Shown one piece after another: positions 24,160-37,842 of a DNA stretch of 45,856 nt. The stretch covers positions 1-45,856 of the forward strand of contig JAITTG010000054.1 in the NCBI GenBank assembly GCA_031287095.1. Reading direction: 5' to 3'. Within the stretch, counting starts at the first letter, position 1, and each line of letters begins with the position of its first letter. Source of the stretch: Candidatus Parendomicrobium reticulitermitis. GTDB taxonomy: Bacteria > Elusimicrobiota > Endomicrobiia > Endomicrobiales > Endomicrobiaceae. Made by a program: the position numbers and the translations under genes. Below the pieces are notes generated by a model. That model searched no databases, was not told the origin of the DNA, and saw only the letters and a list, made by a program, of their open reading frames with translations.

Positions 24160-24214
24160 CCCCGCATAGCCCTGCGAGCAATACGAGGTTATTAACTGCA
24201 TTAAACCCTTTAAA
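24160..24214 (-). repeat. Family A element between the CcdA and MBL genes
   Basis: Read on the minus strand it has AAAGGGTTTAATGCAGTTAA, then AACCTCGTATTG and a hairpin CTCGCAGGGCTATGCGGG. It overlaps the last bases of the CcdA-like gene and ends 20 bases before the start codon of the MBL gene. Confidence 0.8.
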
Positions 24215-24938
24215 ACAATTCAAGAAAATACCATAGCGCCCTATTAAAATAACTGTTTAGAACTGAAAGTTTTCCAAATAGGATTGCAAGTCCAAGCAAA
24301 ATAATCAAAACGGCGCTGGCTTTATTTATGTATGGCAAGATTTTATTAATTTTCGTTTTCGTCTTTAAAAATAGTCCAAAGAATATAGAGACTATAATAA
24401 AAGGCAATCCCAAACCCATAGCGTAAGCAAAAAGATAAGAAACTGCTTTGAAAGAATCTTCTTGTTGAGCGGCAAAAAGCAGGACGCTGGTCAAAATTGG
24501 GCTGATACAAGGCAGCCAGCCCGCGCCAAAAGCAAGACCAAAAACAAAAACTTGCGCTAAATCTTGCGGAGCTTGGGAATGAATGCGTTTTTCATAATTT
24601 AAAAAAGGAATGAAATTAAACAACATATTTGACCCAAAAATTATAATTATAATCCCCGAAATAACATTGATGACAGACCTAAAATCCCCCAGCAAAAGAA
24701 AAGACGCCGAAAATATAAAACTAAATATCGCAAAAACAATGCTGAAACCAGCCGCAAACAAAACAGCCGATAAAACAAGATGAATTCTATCTTTTGCCGT
24801 CTGATTTTCTAAAGCATAAATCGGCGAGCGGCTCAGCAAACCTATATATACGGGAATTAGCGTCCAAACGCAAGGCGATAAAAAAGAAAGAATTCCCGCG
24901 CCAAAAACAAAAACATAATAAAAGAGATTGTTTGTCAT
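24210..24938 (-). CDS. CcdA/DsbD-type transmembrane thiol-disulfide electron carrier
   Basis: The 242-residue protein has six hydrophobic segments and the two membrane Cys motifs of the family: FLSPCVWTLIPVYIG (Cys23) and GWLPCISPILTSVL (Cys144). It would carry electrons from cytoplasmic thioredoxin to the periplasm. Its start lies 4 bases after the stop of the TlpA-like gene, so the two are translated together and TlpA is the likely electron acceptor. The role could be cytochrome c maturation or, more likely in this cytochrome-poor window, keeping periplasmic thiols reduced. Confidence 0.88.
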   Translation of the reverse strand: MTNNLFYYVFVFGAGILSFLSPCVWTLIPVYIGLLSRSPIYALENQTAKDRIHLVLSAVLFAAGFSIVFAIFSFIFSASFLLLGDFRSVINVISGIIIIIFGSNMLFNFIPFLNYEKRIHSQAPQDLAQVFVFGLAFGAGWLPCISPILTSVLLFAAQQEDSFKAVSYLFAYAMGLGLPFIIVSIFFGLFLKTKTKINKILPYINKASAVLIILLGLAILFGKLSVLNSYFNRALWYFLELF

Positions 24939-27121: not shown

Positions 27122-28486
27122 GTCTATCTCAAATCCGTAGGACTTACTTTTGAAGTATTAGACGAGTTTAAGGTTGATATATACGGCATTCAAGGCTACA
27201 ACAATGCATTAGCAACAGCGGAAGGAACGGAGAAGATACGCAAACGCATTGAATTAAGTAATGTTTTAAAGAATTACCAACACGCATTAGTCAAAGACAC
27301 TATGGACACATTTGAAAGCAAGCATTTAACTTTCTCCGGCATAGGCGACATAATGCAACAGATAAGAATGCAAATAGCGGCAGATTTAAGAATGCCTTTA
27401 ACCAAGCTCTTTGGCATATCTTCATCAGGATTTAATTCTGGCGAAGACGATATTGAAAACTACAATGCGATGGTTGAAAGCGAGATACGCTCTAAGGTCA
27501 AATATGATGTTTTACGGGCGCTTGAAATATGTTGCAAAAACCTTTTTGGGATAGTTCCAGATGATTTACAGGTAGAGTTCAAGCCGCTCCGCATATTGTC
27601 GGCAGAGCAGGAAGAGCAGGTTAAAAATCAAAGATTCCAGCGCGTATCTCTTGCAATGCAAAGCGGCTTGATAAGCGCAAAAGAGGCTAAACAGGCGATA
27701 AATCGTGAAAACCTACTGTCCATAAAGATTGACGAAAGTAACGAGTTATTAGACATAGCCAAAAACAATGGCGGTGGTATAGGCGGCGGAGAAACGCCAG
27801 CGATACATCTAAGCACAGGTAAATACAATTCAAAGGGCTGGTTTTCAAAGATAAAGCAACTTCTTAATAATACTTTTAAAGAAAGTGAACACCCGAGAGA
27901 AGATAAAACCAAGAGATTTGTTAATAAATTTAAAGGTGCAAAAACTGTATCTATTCAAGAAGCCCGCATATTTGCATTGAAGGGAAAACCCGTAGCAAGT
28001 ATTAGTGGAGAAGAGTTTCAAAAGGACGAAATTAAATTAACGGAAAAAGTTCCAAAATTTTATAAAGATAAATACGACGGAGAAGTGGATAGTATTATAG
28101 GCAAAGTAAAACTTGATGAAGAGGGGGTTAAAAGCGACATTGCACACGGAATGAGCTCAAAAAAAGCAGCGGCATTTATGTCCGCCCCAGAAGTAATAAA
28201 TAAAGGTAAGTTATTTGATAAACAAAAGAATTGGAAAAATAGGGGATACGATAGTTATGTTTTTATTGCCCCAGTAGAAATTGCAGAAAAACGATACATT
28301 GAAGAAGTTGTTGTTATTGATAGAGAGAGCGGCAATAGGCAAGGATTATATTTACACGATGTGGAACTAAAAAAAGAGGCTGAGAGTGCATTCAAGACCC
28401 CCACCAAAGGGGGATACACCTCAACCTCAAGACTCATATTAACAAAAAAAGTTGATGAGCGCAAGACAAAGGGCAAAGTGTGGTGA
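27122..28486 (+). pseudogene. 5'-truncated phage portal (DUF1073-type) with a C-terminal PBECR-like nuclease domain
   Basis: The frame is open from 27122, but the first ATG (27302) lies inside conserved portal sequence, so the true 5' end is lost. Portal signs are DIYGIQGYNNALATAEGTEK, KHLTFSGIGDIMQQ and MPLTKLFGISSSGFNSGEDD. After a linker with IGGGETPA, the last 170 residues (DIAHGMSSKKAAAFMSAP, NWKNRGYDSYVFIAP, GLYLHDVELKKEAESAFKT) resemble the phage Barnase-EndoU-ColicinE5-RelE-like domain found at the ends of phage structural proteins. It is a dead gene unless an internal start works. The next gene follows after 4 bases. A family H palindrome at 27076-27099 lies just before the break. 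Confidence 0.7.
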
Positions 28487-30181: not shown

Positions 30182-30562
30182 TTACAACACCCCGCTATTA
30201 ACCCATTTTGTAATTTGCTCGCTCAACCGCGCCTGCCACCCCGCCCCGCCTGAGCGAAGTTTGGATAGAGTAACGGGGTCAAAATCAATAGTCTCTTTTA
30301 CCGCCGCTTTTTGTTTTCTTTCATCTCTGCGGAGAAGTTCATTTTTAACTACTGGGTCCCATTGAGGTTTTTCTTTTTGCAATTTTTTAAGTTCTTCTTC
30401 TGTCATAAGACCGGGACGAATAGCATTTTTCATCTCTTCGACAGTGATTTCTGGAATATCGGAAAAATCTATGTCTTCGTCTTTCATATTGAGAACTCTA
30501 TCCCAATCTGTTAAAGACTTCATTTCTTTTAATTGTTCTGTTGTATAACTAACTATTGCCAT
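30182..30562 (-). CDS. brnA: BrnA-like antitoxin
   Basis: The 126-residue protein follows the BrnT toxin gene with a 14-base overlap, the usual toxin-first order. The N-terminal acidic part (DWDRVLNMKDEDIDFSDIPE) is a BrnT-binding type segment. The C-terminal VTLSKLRSGGAGWQARLSEQITKWV matches the BrnA DNA-binding pattern (FKxxGxGWQxRIN..L). The ATG at 30562 follows AAAGGAGG. BrnA normally represses its own operon with BrnT bound. Confidence 0.85.
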   Translation of the reverse strand: MAIVSYTTEQLKEMKSLTDWDRVLNMKDEDIDFSDIPEITVEEMKNAIRPGLMTEEELKKLQKEKPQWDPVVKNELLRRDERKQKAAVKETIDFDPVTLSKLRSGGAGWQARLSEQITKWVNSGVL

Positions 30563-30824
30563 AATAAAGCCTCCTTTCTAACTTGGTTGCAAGTCGAAAC
30601 GAAATAATTCTTGTTTTTTTATTTCTATCGGTATGTATAACCGCTGTCAAAAGTTCTTTTTTGTTTTTACCGATAGTTCTAAATCTTTCTTCCCCATAAT
30701 CTTGTCTATCGTCAAAGATAAGTATAGAGTTAATATCCTCAAAAACCATGCGAGCATCAGCAAAATCTAAACCGTGTTTTTTAAGGTTGCTCATCCTTTT
30801 GTTTTCATCCCATTCATAATCCAT
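30549..30824 (-). CDS. brnT: BrnT-like ribonuclease toxin
   Basis: The 91-residue protein has the BrnT start YEWDENKRMSNLKKHGLDFADARMVFED, the ERFRTIGKNKKELLTAVIHT strand pair and IISFRLATKLERRLYY at the end, a RelE-like fold. It is predicted to cut RNA and stop translation. It starts at 30824 with a weak ribosome binding site, while the antitoxin has a strong one, which fits antitoxin excess. Confidence 0.9.
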   Translation of the reverse strand: MDYEWDENKRMSNLKKHGLDFADARMVFEDINSILIFDDRQDYGEERFRTIGKNKKELLTAVIHTDRNKKTRIISFRLATKLERRLYYGNS

Positions 30825-33618: not shown

Positions 33619-33849
33619 ATGCAAGTAACTTTGACCGAATTAAAAACAAATACTGGTAAATATGTTGCTTTGGCTGATAGTGAAGACATTTTTATTACAA
33701 AAAATGGCAAGAAAATCGCCAAAATCACAAGCGCAAAAATGGATAAAATAACGTCTGCCAAAGCGCTTTTTGGTATTATTCCTAATGATATTGATTTAGA
33801 CTCATCTAGAATGGAGCGTTTAAATGAGCATAGTTCTATTAGATACTAA
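33619..33849 (+). CDS. Phd/YefM-family antitoxin
   Basis: The 76-residue protein begins MQVTLTELKTNTGKYVALADSEDIFITKNGKKIAKI, the typical Phd/YefM fold that binds DNA as a dimer, followed by a short C-terminal toxin-binding segment (KALFGIIPNDIDLDSSRMERL). The ATG follows AAGGAG at about 7 bases. It overlaps the PIN toxin gene by 26 bases, so expression is coupled. Confidence 0.88.
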   Translation: MQVTLTELKTNTGKYVALADSEDIFITKNGKKIAKITSAKMDKITSAKALFGIIPNDIDLDSSRMERLNEHSSIRY

Positions 33850-34261
33850 TATTCTTCTCGATGCTATTGCCAATCGCCCGCCTTTTTGCGTAAGCGCTCA
33901 AAAAATTTTTATACAAGCGGCGCAAGAGACAATAGATGCTCATATTACGGCAAATAGTCTTACAGATATTTATTATATAGCGAGAAAAGTTTTGTCGTCT
34001 GCGGCGGCGCATAGCGCTATTGAAGATATTTTGAATGTTTTTTCTATTGTCAGTATAGATGAAGATGATTGTAAAGAAGCAATTGACAGCGGTATTGATG
34101 ATTTTGAAGATGCTCTTATAATGGTTTGCGCCGAGAAAATAAAAGCAGACTATATTATAAGCAGAGACAAATCTTTTCAAAGCAGTACAAATACAATAAA
34201 AATCCTTTCAGCAGACGATTTTATCGCGCAGAACATATCCTACTTTCTCAATGAAAAATAA
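33824..34261 (+). CDS. PIN-domain toxin (VapC-like)
   Basis: The 145-residue PIN protein shows Asp7 in VLLDTNILLDA, a TANSLTDIYYIARK block, Asp96 in DDFEDALIMVCAEK and Asp115 in ISRDKSF. It belongs to the PIN group that pairs with Phd-type antitoxins. A GAGCG ribosome-site-like stretch inside the antitoxin gene precedes the ATG. Confidence 0.88.
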   Translation: MSIVLLDTNILLDAIANRPPFCVSAQKIFIQAAQETIDAHITANSLTDIYYIARKVLSSAAAHSAIEDILNVFSIVSIDEDDCKEAIDSGIDDFEDALIMVCAEKIKADYIISRDKSFQSSTNTIKILSADDFIAQNISYFLNEK

Positions 34262-34401: not shown

Positions 34402-35907
34402 TTAAGCCATCTGCGCACATTGCGGTTTTTGCCCTTTTACCAATTTTATACCCTTGTTTAAGCCTTCAACAGGGCATTTATTTTGGCAGATGCCGCAGCC
34501 TATACATAAGTCTCGGCTGACTTCGGGAGCGTCAACCGTATTGTCATTGACTGTTTGTTTGACAAATTTTATTGCTTTGCTTGGGATAGGACACATCTCT
34601 TCGCATACTAAACAAGTCACGCCCGTAGCCCAAGGTATGCAAATGTCTTTTTGAATTATCGCTTGCCCCATTTTAAATTGTTGTTTCTCTTCTATGGATA
34701 AAGGTTTAATTGCCTCTGTGGGGCACGCTTGCCCGCAGGCATTGCAATTGTATTCGCAATAACCTATTTTGGCATCCATTTTTGGAGTCCAAATTCCGTC
34801 AAATCCGCTTTCAATTCCCGACGGCTGCAGCCCGTTTGTTATACAGATTTTCATACAATTTCCGCAACGGACGCAGGCTTGTTTAAATTGCGGTTCAGGC
34901 AAGGCTCCGGGCGGACGGATGATATTATTTTTTGTATTTTCTAATTGTCCAAAAATGTTTTTCTTTCCAATCATCACAATGGCTGACGCTATGCCCGCCC
35001 CCCAATATAAAAATTGTTTTCTTGTAATTCCTTTTTTCTCATCAGTTTCTTTGTTTGAAATCGGCATTGTAGGCACAGGCCTTTTGCATTTGAGAGGAAC
35101 GCAATTCATACACATTATGCACTCGCTCTTTATGATAGTTGCGTCTTGTCTTATAGCGTTTGTAGGGCAATTGTTTTTACATTTGCCGCAAGCGTTCATA
35201 CAGGCTCTTGATTTGACGCCGAAAGGCGCTTTGACCGACAAAATTCCAAGCGATGCTCCCAATGGGCAAATATATCTGCACCAAAACCGTTTCTTAAACA
35301 AAACAAAAATTATAGGAACGACGAACAAAACGAGAAATATAGTTGAATGATTAAATGATATTAGCCTTGCGTCAAAAATAAAATTTTGAGTGAAAGAATA
35401 TAAATTTGAGCCTATGTTAAAATTCATTATCAAATACTCAAACACAATATCATTTGCAAAATTTAAAGCGGGGAAAAGTTTCATATATAAGAATCTTGAA
35501 AATATTGTGATAGGTTCGGCATACCATACAAATTGAAAACCCAAAACCGCCGCTATAAAAAAGAGCGTTAGCAAAATATATTTTGAAAACAGCGCTTTTG
35601 AAGGCTCTTTTTCTGTCCATTTTCTAAAAGGCTTGAATATAAAAGCGGCAAAATCCATCACAGCTCCGAAAGGGCAAAGCCATCCGCAAAACGCTCTCCC
35701 AAAAAGCAAAGCGCCGATGATAAAAACCGCGCATAAAATCAGCCCTTTAAAAAGATGAACGGAAGACAAAGCCGCTAAAAACGACATAGACGGCGAAGCC
35801 AAAAAGAAATTCAAAGACGGCAATTTGGGCGGATAACTCAAAAGGAACATAGTTGCCGCAGTAAATAGGAAAACCAATATCTGAATTGAAATTCTTAATT
35901 TTTTCAT
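34402..35907 (-). CDS. NapH/NapG-like membrane polyferredoxin with an internal Tat-like motif
   Basis: The 501-residue protein joins a NapH-type membrane part and a ferredoxin-rich tail. The membrane part (about residues 5-225) has the CGWLCPFGA (74) and CRYICPLGA (210) motifs. Two [4Fe-4S] sets follow: CMNACGKCKNNCP and CIMCMNC. Next comes ITRKQFLYWGAGIASAIVMIG (about 294-314), a Tat-signal-like hydrophobic segment with Arg-Lys in place of Arg-Arg. The tail has CVRCGNCMKIC, CNACGQACP, CLVCEEMCP and CIGCGICQNKCP. It would take electrons from quinol or a partner and carry them across the membrane. It is the last gene after tatA, tatC and DUF362. The ATG at 35907 has only a weak AGAGGA before it. 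Confidence 0.85.
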   Translation of the reverse strand: MKKLRISIQILVFLFTAATMFLLSYPPKLPSLNFFLASPSMSFLAALSSVHLFKGLILCAVFIIGALLFGRAFCGWLCPFGAVMDFAAFIFKPFRKWTEKEPSKALFSKYILLTLFFIAAVLGFQFVWYAEPITIFSRFLYMKLFPALNFANDIVFEYLIMNFNIGSNLYSFTQNFIFDARLISFNHSTIFLVLFVVPIIFVLFKKRFWCRYICPLGASLGILSVKAPFGVKSRACMNACGKCKNNCPTNAIRQDATIIKSECIMCMNCVPLKCKRPVPTMPISNKETDEKKGITRKQFLYWGAGIASAIVMIGKKNIFGQLENTKNNIIRPPGALPEPQFKQACVRCGNCMKICITNGLQPSGIESGFDGIWTPKMDAKIGYCEYNCNACGQACPTEAIKPLSIEEKQQFKMGQAIIQKDICIPWATGVTCLVCEEMCPIPSKAIKFVKQTVNDNTVDAPEVSRDLCIGCGICQNKCPVEGLNKGIKLVKGQKPQCAQMA

Positions 35908-36107: not shown

Positions 36108-37109
36108 TTATTTTTCAATTTTCACTTTTGAATTTGGCGAGAATAGTTTTCCAAGTCCTTTTTGCGCGCTGATATTTATATAACCTATGGATTTAGGCTC
36201 TTTGTTAAAAAATGTTTTTGCGCTGTAACTATCCGCCAAAACTCCGTCGGCTGAGGCTACTACTGTATTTTTCTTAACAACATCAGCCAAATTACCGCCG
36301 CGCGGACCATTTCTTGTGATGACTGCATTTGCGTCAATAATATAGAGGTCTGGTTTAAAAAACTCATTTAATTCATAAATGCTTTCGTCCAAATTCCAAT
36401 GGCATTGTCCTCTCCCGCCGCCCATGTAGCCTATGAGATTTTTTAATCCCATAGAAAGTTGAGCCTGCCCATGATGTTTTGCCACAGGAACGCTTATTAA
36501 CACATCGCAGTCAACGCCGTCTTTAATTAGCATAAAATCTTCTAATACTGCGTTTGGTCTATTAAATTTCGCGGGTAGAAATCTAAAATTATCAGTATAA
36601 AAAACTTCAGCGCCTGCGGCTTTTGCGGCGGCGGCTATTCCGGAATTTTCATAACTAGACTTTCTATCATTTAGCGTATTATCAAAAACTCTCACCGCTT
36701 TTGCCCCGCTTTCAAAACACATTTTCACTACTTCGCTTACCACTGCGGGATTTGTATTTGCCGCGTATTGAGGCGTTAAATTCCAAGACATATTCGGCTT
36801 TAATGCCACAATATCTCCTTTCTTTACAAATTTGCCCATACCCCCCAGCAATTCAACCGCTCTTCTTGTGATTGCGGACGGATTTGAGCCTGTCGCTGCC
36901 GTCAAATCAAAATCCGTTGTAATACCAGCCCTTTTATTTCTTGGATACAAGGCTTTTGTGTTTTGGGCAAAAACATTTTTTGCAGATTTTGACGATAATC
37001 CCAAAACGGCTGCCGCCGCGGCGGCTGTTTTTAAGAAAGTTTTCCTTGTCATATCCTTGCCCAAGATTTCTTTTGTTTTTTCTGCGATTTTTTCAACATT
37101 GTTCTTCAT
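36108..37109 (-). CDS. DUF362 family ferredoxin-associated protein with Tat-like signal
   Basis: The 333-residue protein has a DUF362 core: ALKPNMSWN, KAVRVFDNTLN, DVLISVPVAKHHGQAQLSMGLKNLIGYMG and NAVITRNGPRGGNLADV. Its N-terminus has a 20-residue charged lead, then MTRKTFLKTAAAAAAVLGLSS, a Tat-type signal with Arg22-Lys23 in place of the twin arginines. It is therefore probably exported folded. The gene overlaps tatC by 17 bases, follows AAAGGAG, and lies upstream of the polyferredoxin gene. DUF362 proteins often occur with ferredoxin-like partners; the reaction is unknown. Confidence 0.85.
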   Translation of the reverse strand: MKNNVEKIAEKTKEILGKDMTRKTFLKTAAAAAAVLGLSSKSAKNVFAQNTKALYPRNKRAGITTDFDLTAATGSNPSAITRRAVELLGGMGKFVKKGDIVALKPNMSWNLTPQYAANTNPAVVSEVVKMCFESGAKAVRVFDNTLNDRKSSYENSGIAAAAKAAGAEVFYTDNFRFLPAKFNRPNAVLEDFMLIKDGVDCDVLISVPVAKHHGQAQLSMGLKNLIGYMGGGRGQCHWNLDESIYELNEFFKPDLYIIDANAVITRNGPRGGNLADVVKKNTVVASADGVLADSYSAKTFFNKEPKSIGYINISAQKGLGKLFSPNSKVKIEK

Positions 37110-37836
37110 AGGCTTTTTCTCCTTTAAACATATTTTTTTTGTGGACAGTTTTAGAAAATATAACTCCGACTTCGTATAAAATTATCATAGGGACTACAAA
37201 AAGCGCCAAACTAAAAACATCTGTGGTAGGCGTAATCACTGCCGCGGCTATTATCAAAGCAAAATACGCTTCTTTTCTTTTTGAAATCAACATTTTTGGC
37301 GTAATCAACCCGATTTTTGTAAGTATAAAAGCCGCAAGCGGTATTTGAAAAATTCCCGCCCCGCATAGTAAAAGAGCCATTGTAAAAGATATATAAGACG
37401 ACAAAGTTATTTGAATTGCCGAATCCGTAAGCCCCTTAGACAAAAATGTCAAAAAAGCAATCGCTTTTGATAAAACCGTCCAATACACAAAAGCCCCGCC
37501 GCATACAAAAAGTAAAAATGCTATTGCCGCCCATTTCAATATACTTATATCTTTTGCGCCTACCGCGGGTTTTATAAAACTAAAAATTTCCCAAAAAATT
37601 AAAGGGCTTGCAAAGATAAGCCCTGAAAACAAAGCGGTTTTAAGATAAATTGTTATAGATTCGGCGGGTTTTAAAATCAAAAAGTTTTCTATCAAACCTT
37701 TTGATGGGAGTTTTAATATATATAGTATTTCGTCAGAAAAGTAAAAAGCCAAGATTGCGGACATTAAAACAAAAATTATGCAACGGATAAGCCGCGTTCT
37801 AAACTCTTCAAGATGCTGGCTGACAGTCATTTTCAT
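37093..37836 (-). CDS. tatC: Sec-independent protein translocase TatC
   Basis: The 247-residue protein has six hydrophobic segments and the TatC start MTVSQHLEEFRTRLIRC (consensus HLxELRxRL), which with the first loop binds the twin-arginine motif. FASPLIFWEIFSFIKPAV and AAVITPTTDVFSLALFVVPMIILYE are typical. I use the ATG at 37836; a TTG one codon earlier is possible, since GGAAG lies at the end of tatA. It follows tatA with a short gap and its end overlaps the DUF362 gene. Confidence 0.93.
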   Translation of the reverse strand: MKMTVSQHLEEFRTRLIRCIIFVLMSAILAFYFSDEILYILKLPSKGLIENFLILKPAESITIYLKTALFSGLIFASPLIFWEIFSFIKPAVGAKDISILKWAAIAFLLFVCGGAFVYWTVLSKAIAFLTFLSKGLTDSAIQITLSSYISFTMALLLCGAGIFQIPLAAFILTKIGLITPKMLISKRKEAYFALIIAAAVITPTTDVFSLALFVVPMIILYEVGVIFSKTVHKKNMFKGEKAYEEQC

Positions 37837-37842
37837 CAAAAA

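Follow-up and report, generated by a model that had tools for sequence, protein, structure and literature searches.

The 45,856-nt stretch of Candidatus Parendomicrobium reticulitermitis DNA analysed here (contig JAITTG010000054.1, in the following called the window) raises the question of how a polytopic polyferredoxin with a Tat-like segment in its interior is inserted into the membrane, and what would recognize this segment if it carries no twin arginine. The first-pass annotation had located the segment at 34945-35040 and had proposed insertion by two routes, Sec and Tat, after the model of the actinobacterial Rieske protein. The segment itself is real, with NapH helices, Cys clusters, TRKQF, a weak helix and four cluster motifs following each other in the described order. 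We consider it probable that it represents the Tat-dependent fifth transmembrane segment (TMD5) of a Sec/Tat dual-inserted polyferredoxin, that the TatAC encoded in the same operon serves it, and that the lineage has shifted to single-arginine recognition, all parts of this statement taken jointly. Two things had been missed in the earlier reading: the absence of the twin arginine, and an operon-encoded TatAC with a matching change in its binding site.

The flagged bases encode residues 290-321 of the 501-aa polyferredoxin on the minus strand, with KKGITRKQFLYWGAGIASAIVMIGKKN as the core of the segment (Table 1). N-terminal to TRKQF lie four strongly hydrophobic segments (residues 6-24, 56-74, 110-128 and 185-203) as well as NapH-type CxxxCP motifs and eight more cysteines in two clusters (236-274), and C-terminal to it 16 cysteines (345-478) make up four [4Fe-4S] motifs. 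NCBIfam profiles recognize a NapG-like and a NapH-like half, both far under the curated cut-offs for equivalog status (95 bits against a cut-off of 269, and 72 against 234), and the domain profile search gave no match to a Rieske domain in the polyferredoxin. The two halves have a domain content like that of the NapG and NapH quinol dehydrogenase, which are separate proteins in Nap systems and fused in the window. An AlphaFold2 model of the polyferredoxin was discarded as evidence because of its mean pLDDT of 50.7; we infer both the topology of the protein and its dependence on Tat.

Table 1. Features of the polyferredoxin gene and its operon in the window.
Feature	Position	Strand	Basis
Polytopic polyferredoxin (NapH-NapG fusion, 501 aa)	34402..35907	minus	Fer4_5 and several Fer4 matches; NapG-/NapH-type NCBIfam matches below cut-off; 15 orthologues aligned
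NapH-like part, four Sec-type hydrophobic segments (residues 6-203)	35299..35892	minus	Hydrophobic segments
Cys motifs of the NapH part (residues 210-274), predicted cytoplasmic	35086..35280	minus	Alignment and sequence reading
Single-arginine Tat-type motif T295-R296-K297-Q298-F299	35011..35025	minus	16-row alignment
Predicted TMD5, weakly hydrophobic (residues 299-314), then KK	34966..35013	minus	Hydrophobicity; low-confidence AlphaFold2 helix 296-321
NapG-like domain, four [4Fe-4S] motifs (residues 345-479), predicted extracytoplasmic	34471..34875	minus	Domain matches and Cys motifs
DUF362 protein (PF04015) with N-terminal Tat-type signal	36108..37109	minus	TIGR01409 Tat-signal match
Single-arginine motif T-R-K-T-F of the DUF362 signal	37035..37049	minus	Sequence reading
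tatC, E103-less type, start codon uncertain, overlaps the DUF362 gene	37093..37839	minus	TIGR00945 152.1 bits (cut-off 132.7); predicted fold
TatC TM2-TM3 loop FIKPAVGAKD; Y100 and E103 (E. coli numbering) not conserved	37549..37578	minus	Alignment
tatA (69 aa), only TatA/B-type gene found in the genome	37843..38052	minus	Sequence search

In the alignment of 16 rows R296 and F299 are invariant and residue 297 is K or A, whereas identity in the remaining columns of the linker around them is mostly 20-55%, with gaps in part of them. Two invariant residues inside an otherwise variable linker argue for a motif under selection and against chance. Motifs were read by eye in extracted segments, nearly all genomes being metagenome bins. 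In all Endomicrobiales orthologues that reach the motif it has the form [S/T]R(K/A)xF and is never RR, and the same holds for the DUF362 signals of the operon. Within the Endomicrobiaceae the polyferredoxin of the tatA-tatC-DUF362 operon and the DUF362 signal both read [S/T]RKxF, and in the other Endomicrobiales families the polyferredoxin motif is [S/T]RAxF. RR is almost always present in the polyferredoxins of Nitrospirota, Acidobacteriota, Chloroflexota, Hydrogenedentota, Aminicenantes and other phyla.

The segment following TRKQF is weakly hydrophobic, below the threshold passed by the four NapH helices, and ends with GKKN. Low hydrophobicity and C-terminal positive charge are the signatures of Sec hand-over described by Tooke et al. 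in 2017, who found that reporters fused after TMD5 of the MLMS-1 polyferredoxin were translocated in a Tat-dependent manner (PMC5449189), and both are present in the window polyferredoxin. With dual Sec/Tat insertion of such polyferredoxins shown in that study, the dual-route idea is already known biology. The window protein resembles the MLMS-1 family (Q1NSB0) in the NapH-NapG fusion, the four Sec TMDs, the weak and positively flanked TMD5, the four C-terminal 4Fe-4S motifs and the Tat-type motif directly N-terminal to TMD5. That family was, however, reported with a conserved twin arginine, whereas RK or RA stands directly before TMD5 in every Endomicrobiales orthologue reaching the motif, and, unlike in the MLMS-1 family, tatA, tatC and the gene of a DUF362 Tat protein belong to the same operon as the window gene. 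Judged by its sequence, the polyferredoxin is a variant and not a standard member of the family of Tooke et al., as its motif lacks the twin arginine. The actinobacterial Rieske protein QcrA (Keller 2012; Hopkins 2014), as far as it is described in PMC5449189, is alike in that Sec inserts the first helices and Tat the last helix with the folded Fe-S domain, but it has three TMDs, a Rieske domain and a twin-arginine motif and is not homologous to the polyferredoxin.

tatA, tatC and the DUF362 gene are all located upstream of the polyferredoxin gene on the same strand, and the order tatA-tatC-DUF362-polyferredoxin, with the polyferredoxin last, was found in 16 genomes (the window and 15 relatives). 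Throughout the family TatC and the polyferredoxin occur together in 26 genomes and are both absent from 9, with TatC alone in a single, incomplete genome. In one relative (G041) the polyferredoxin gene is naturally split; its NapG half starts with MKKIRDLSKLTRAQFL, the segment here being an N-terminal signal. In the genome of the window the DUF362 protein, with its RK motif, gave the sole Tat-signal match of the TIGR01409 search. The operon appears to encode its own Tat channel together with two proteins that are most likely exported through it. Given the MLMS-1 precedent, the linkage to tatA and tatC, the co-occurrence and the fission in G041, we regard dual-route insertion of the window polyferredoxin as well supported by analogy and sequence features; its closest precedent is a polyferredoxin and not the Rieske protein of the first-pass comparison. 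In the collection of papers searched, nothing turned up on Tat in Endomicrobia, nor on DUF362 with Tat and ferredoxin. As to gene neighborhoods, the pair of DUF362 and polyferredoxin genes is conserved across many phyla (L152-L231) with Tat-type signals on both proteins. A gene for a CcdA-like membrane protein, so called by sequence resemblance only, is located directly upstream of tatA in three relatives (L112, L113 and L117, genomes G026, G013 and G030), and the window contains a DsbD_TM/CcdA-type gene at 24210-24938.

Regarding the receptor, the window TatC exceeds its profile cut-off (Table 1), and its predicted structure (pLDDT 82.5) matches 4b4a, 4hts and 9e01, with TM-scores of 0.80-0.88 to 4b4a and 4hts and the best value of 0.88 to 4hts; according to the model it still folds as a TatC. 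In the cryo-EM structure from E. coli published in 2026, Arg1 of the signal contacts E15 (via water) and F94, Arg2 is salt-bridged to E103 and packed on Y100, and the signal Phe is held in a pocket of F94, L9, H12 and L13; the E103A variant is transport-inactive (PMC13323110). E103 has been called almost completely invariant in all domains (PMC5539426). With the TatC of E. coli and A. aeolicus (PDB 9dzz, 9e01, 4b4a) the window TatC has the fold and the equivalents of H12, E15 and F94 in common, whereas those of Y100 and E103 are not conserved. E103 is missing in 43 of 111 TatC rows, including all 20 Endomicrobiales TatC of the E103-less type. These 20 proteins keep the H12 equivalent, have E or D in place of E15 and keep F94 (Y in one), while none is aligned with E at position 103 and the Y100 position is variable. 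The loop of the window TatC, PAVGAKDISI, aligns to PALYSHEKRA with a one-residue deletion that makes the alignment ambiguous, so that either D or K may stand at the position of E103; with Q or A in this place in the sister genome G001, an acid is not maintained there. The previously unreported part, as far as it can be read from the sequences, is a motif that is not a twin arginine, with a matching change in TatC.

In order to compare motif and receptor in this and other phyla, TatC was paired with its substrates by operon or genome, giving 103 TatC/substrate sets. Where E103 is lost, 42 of 43 sets include one or more linked substrates lacking the second arginine; where it is kept, 4 of 60 do (Fisher 5e-23, uncorrected for descent). 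Among the 82 signals of the E103-lost set Arg1 is present in all 82, Phe in 81 and S/T in 79, and Arg2 in only 10. Both E103 states occur within the Omnitrophota; in four of these E103 is kept although one substrate or both carry RK. When the loop was left out of the TatC tree, loss of E103 amounted to about 5 changes, 3 of them forced by well-supported branches, and tree-independent pairs showed agreement in about 2 of 3 cases and the opposite almost never. Since independent losses of E103 are few, the association is not significant once corrected for descent. The operon, the motif, the TatC changes and their association are evident in these comparisons, and we infer that the change in the receptor and the change in the motif may be functionally coupled.

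A strict rule by which loss of E103 forces loss of Arg2 was refuted by a TatC clade of the Anaerolineales (Chloroflexota), in which E15 is replaced by A and E103 often by S, T or A (L390-L433). In the 5 genomes checked, which lack E103 as well as E15, the DUF362 and polyferredoxin signals of this clade carry RR, and with these genomes included the counts become 42/47 for E103-lost and 4/61 for E103-kept; loss of E103 accordingly permits loss of the second arginine but does not force it. The symmetric rule connecting loss of E15 with loss of Arg1 was dropped, as TatC proteins with E15 replaced by A keep RR substrates. In its own right this clade departs from the standard receptor in a second, different way. 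In E. coli, suppressors act by compensation through more hydrophobic signals (PMC5539426). Such compensation, although predicted, was not seen here: the h-regions of polyferredoxins in the E103-lost set tend, if at all, towards lower hydrophobicity, and the signals of DUF362 type show no difference in this respect between the E103-lost and E103-kept sets.

A second tatAC, in which E103 is retained, is present in six Endomicrobiaceae genomes and adjoins a different polyferredoxin with RR. In all six the E103-less TatC adjoins RK substrates and the E103-bearing TatC adjoins RR substrates. Further RR Tat signals are present in several genomes that have only the E103-keeping type of TatC. Tentatively, and with somewhat more doubt than confidence, we suggest a dedicated single-arginine Tat translocon without a second-arginine site, which in the six genomes may run orthogonal to a twin-arginine system, the specificity being set by motif position 2 and TatC residue 103. 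In the E103-keeping second systems examined for their neighbors (L132, L136, L142, L146), the polyferredoxin is accompanied not by a DUF362 protein but by an aldo/keto reductase that has an RR signal and a ferredoxin domain at its C-terminus.

According to the proposed mechanism, Sec would insert the four NapH-like helices and release TMD5, the hydrophobicity of which would be too low and the far end too positively charged. The C-terminal NapG-like domain would fold and receive its four clusters in the cytoplasm, and the operon TatAC would bind [S/T]-R-x-x-F via Arg1/E15/F94 and the Phe pocket and carry the folded domain, and likewise the DUF362 protein, across the membrane. In the Endomicrobiales and in most module-carrying Omnitrophota recognition would have moved from twin-arginine to single-arginine [S/T]-R-x-x-F, with TatC keeping the Arg1/Phe pocket (H12, E15, F94) and losing the Arg2 site (Y100, E103), and with motif position 2 drifting to K, A, G, S, N or I. 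Electrons might flow between cytoplasmic clusters, quinone and outer domain, as suggested by NapGH only.

The same sequences could also belong to an ordinary dual-route polyferredoxin, with RK or RA tolerated at some cost in efficiency, and with TatC loop changes that have no link to the motif and stem from drift in a translocon that evolves fast or is a dedicated one. We consider this unlikely, but it deserves serious attention, as exchange of a single Arg for Lys still allows transport by E. coli Tat, only more slowly (PMC6708511), and neither RR nor its TatC site was strictly essential according to Huang and Palmer 2017 (PMC5539426); the small number of independent origins and the Anaerolineales, which lost E103 and kept RR, fit as well. 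Drift of this kind is, however, difficult to reconcile with both operon substrates being altered at one motif position while Arg1, Phe and S/T stay nearly invariant, with Ala and Gly also occurring at position 2, and with the segregation of motif states by operon in the two-system genomes. Moreover, RK is said to block thylakoid transport (PMC6708511).

Any role of Tat would be missing if Sec inserted all five helices, or if TMD5 stayed uncrossed with both ferredoxin parts in the cytoplasm and the conserved R and F served otherwise. A topology that is only predicted, a poor structural model and the weak hydrophobicity of TMD5 leave some room for this, but the operon shared with tatA and tatC, present in 16 genomes, the co-occurrence of TatC and polyferredoxin, the G041 fission that turns the segment into an N-terminal signal, a homologue shown to be Tat-dependent and the related NapG, a Tat-dependent periplasmic protein (both PMC5449189), make it quite improbable. 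We give hardly any credence to a degenerate or non-functional E103-less system. The lost residue is indeed almost invariant in all domains (PMC5539426) and its replacement by Ala inactivates the E. coli protein (PMC13323110), yet every gene is an intact open frame across families and an order, the TatC fold is retained in the predicted structure, and Arg1 and Phe of the substrates are very strongly conserved.

Single-arginine recognition by the operon TatAC would have one natural parallel in TtrB, which has been called the only known native Tat cargo with a KR motif (PMC6708511). TtrB likewise has a natural single-arginine Tat signal but replaces the first arginine, whereas in the window lineage the second is replaced, and this in every operon substrate across an order. 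Both the second arginine and E103 of TatC are regarded as nearly universal, and a lineage lacking the two contact partners would provide a natural experiment on the purpose of the twin arginine; it would also inform on how Tat systems could become substrate-specific. The RK, RA and RG signals of these phyla would escape predictors based on RR.

Elsewhere in the window, a pair of Phd/YefM antitoxin and PIN-domain toxin genes is located at 33619-34261 on the plus strand, facing the 3' end of the polyferredoxin gene in convergent orientation, and a BrnT/BrnA toxin-antitoxin pair at 30182-30824 on the minus strand. A gene at 27302-28486 (plus strand) joins the C-terminal part of a phage portal protein (positions 241-355 only of Phage_portal_3) to an LPD3 domain and is apparently a prophage remnant.
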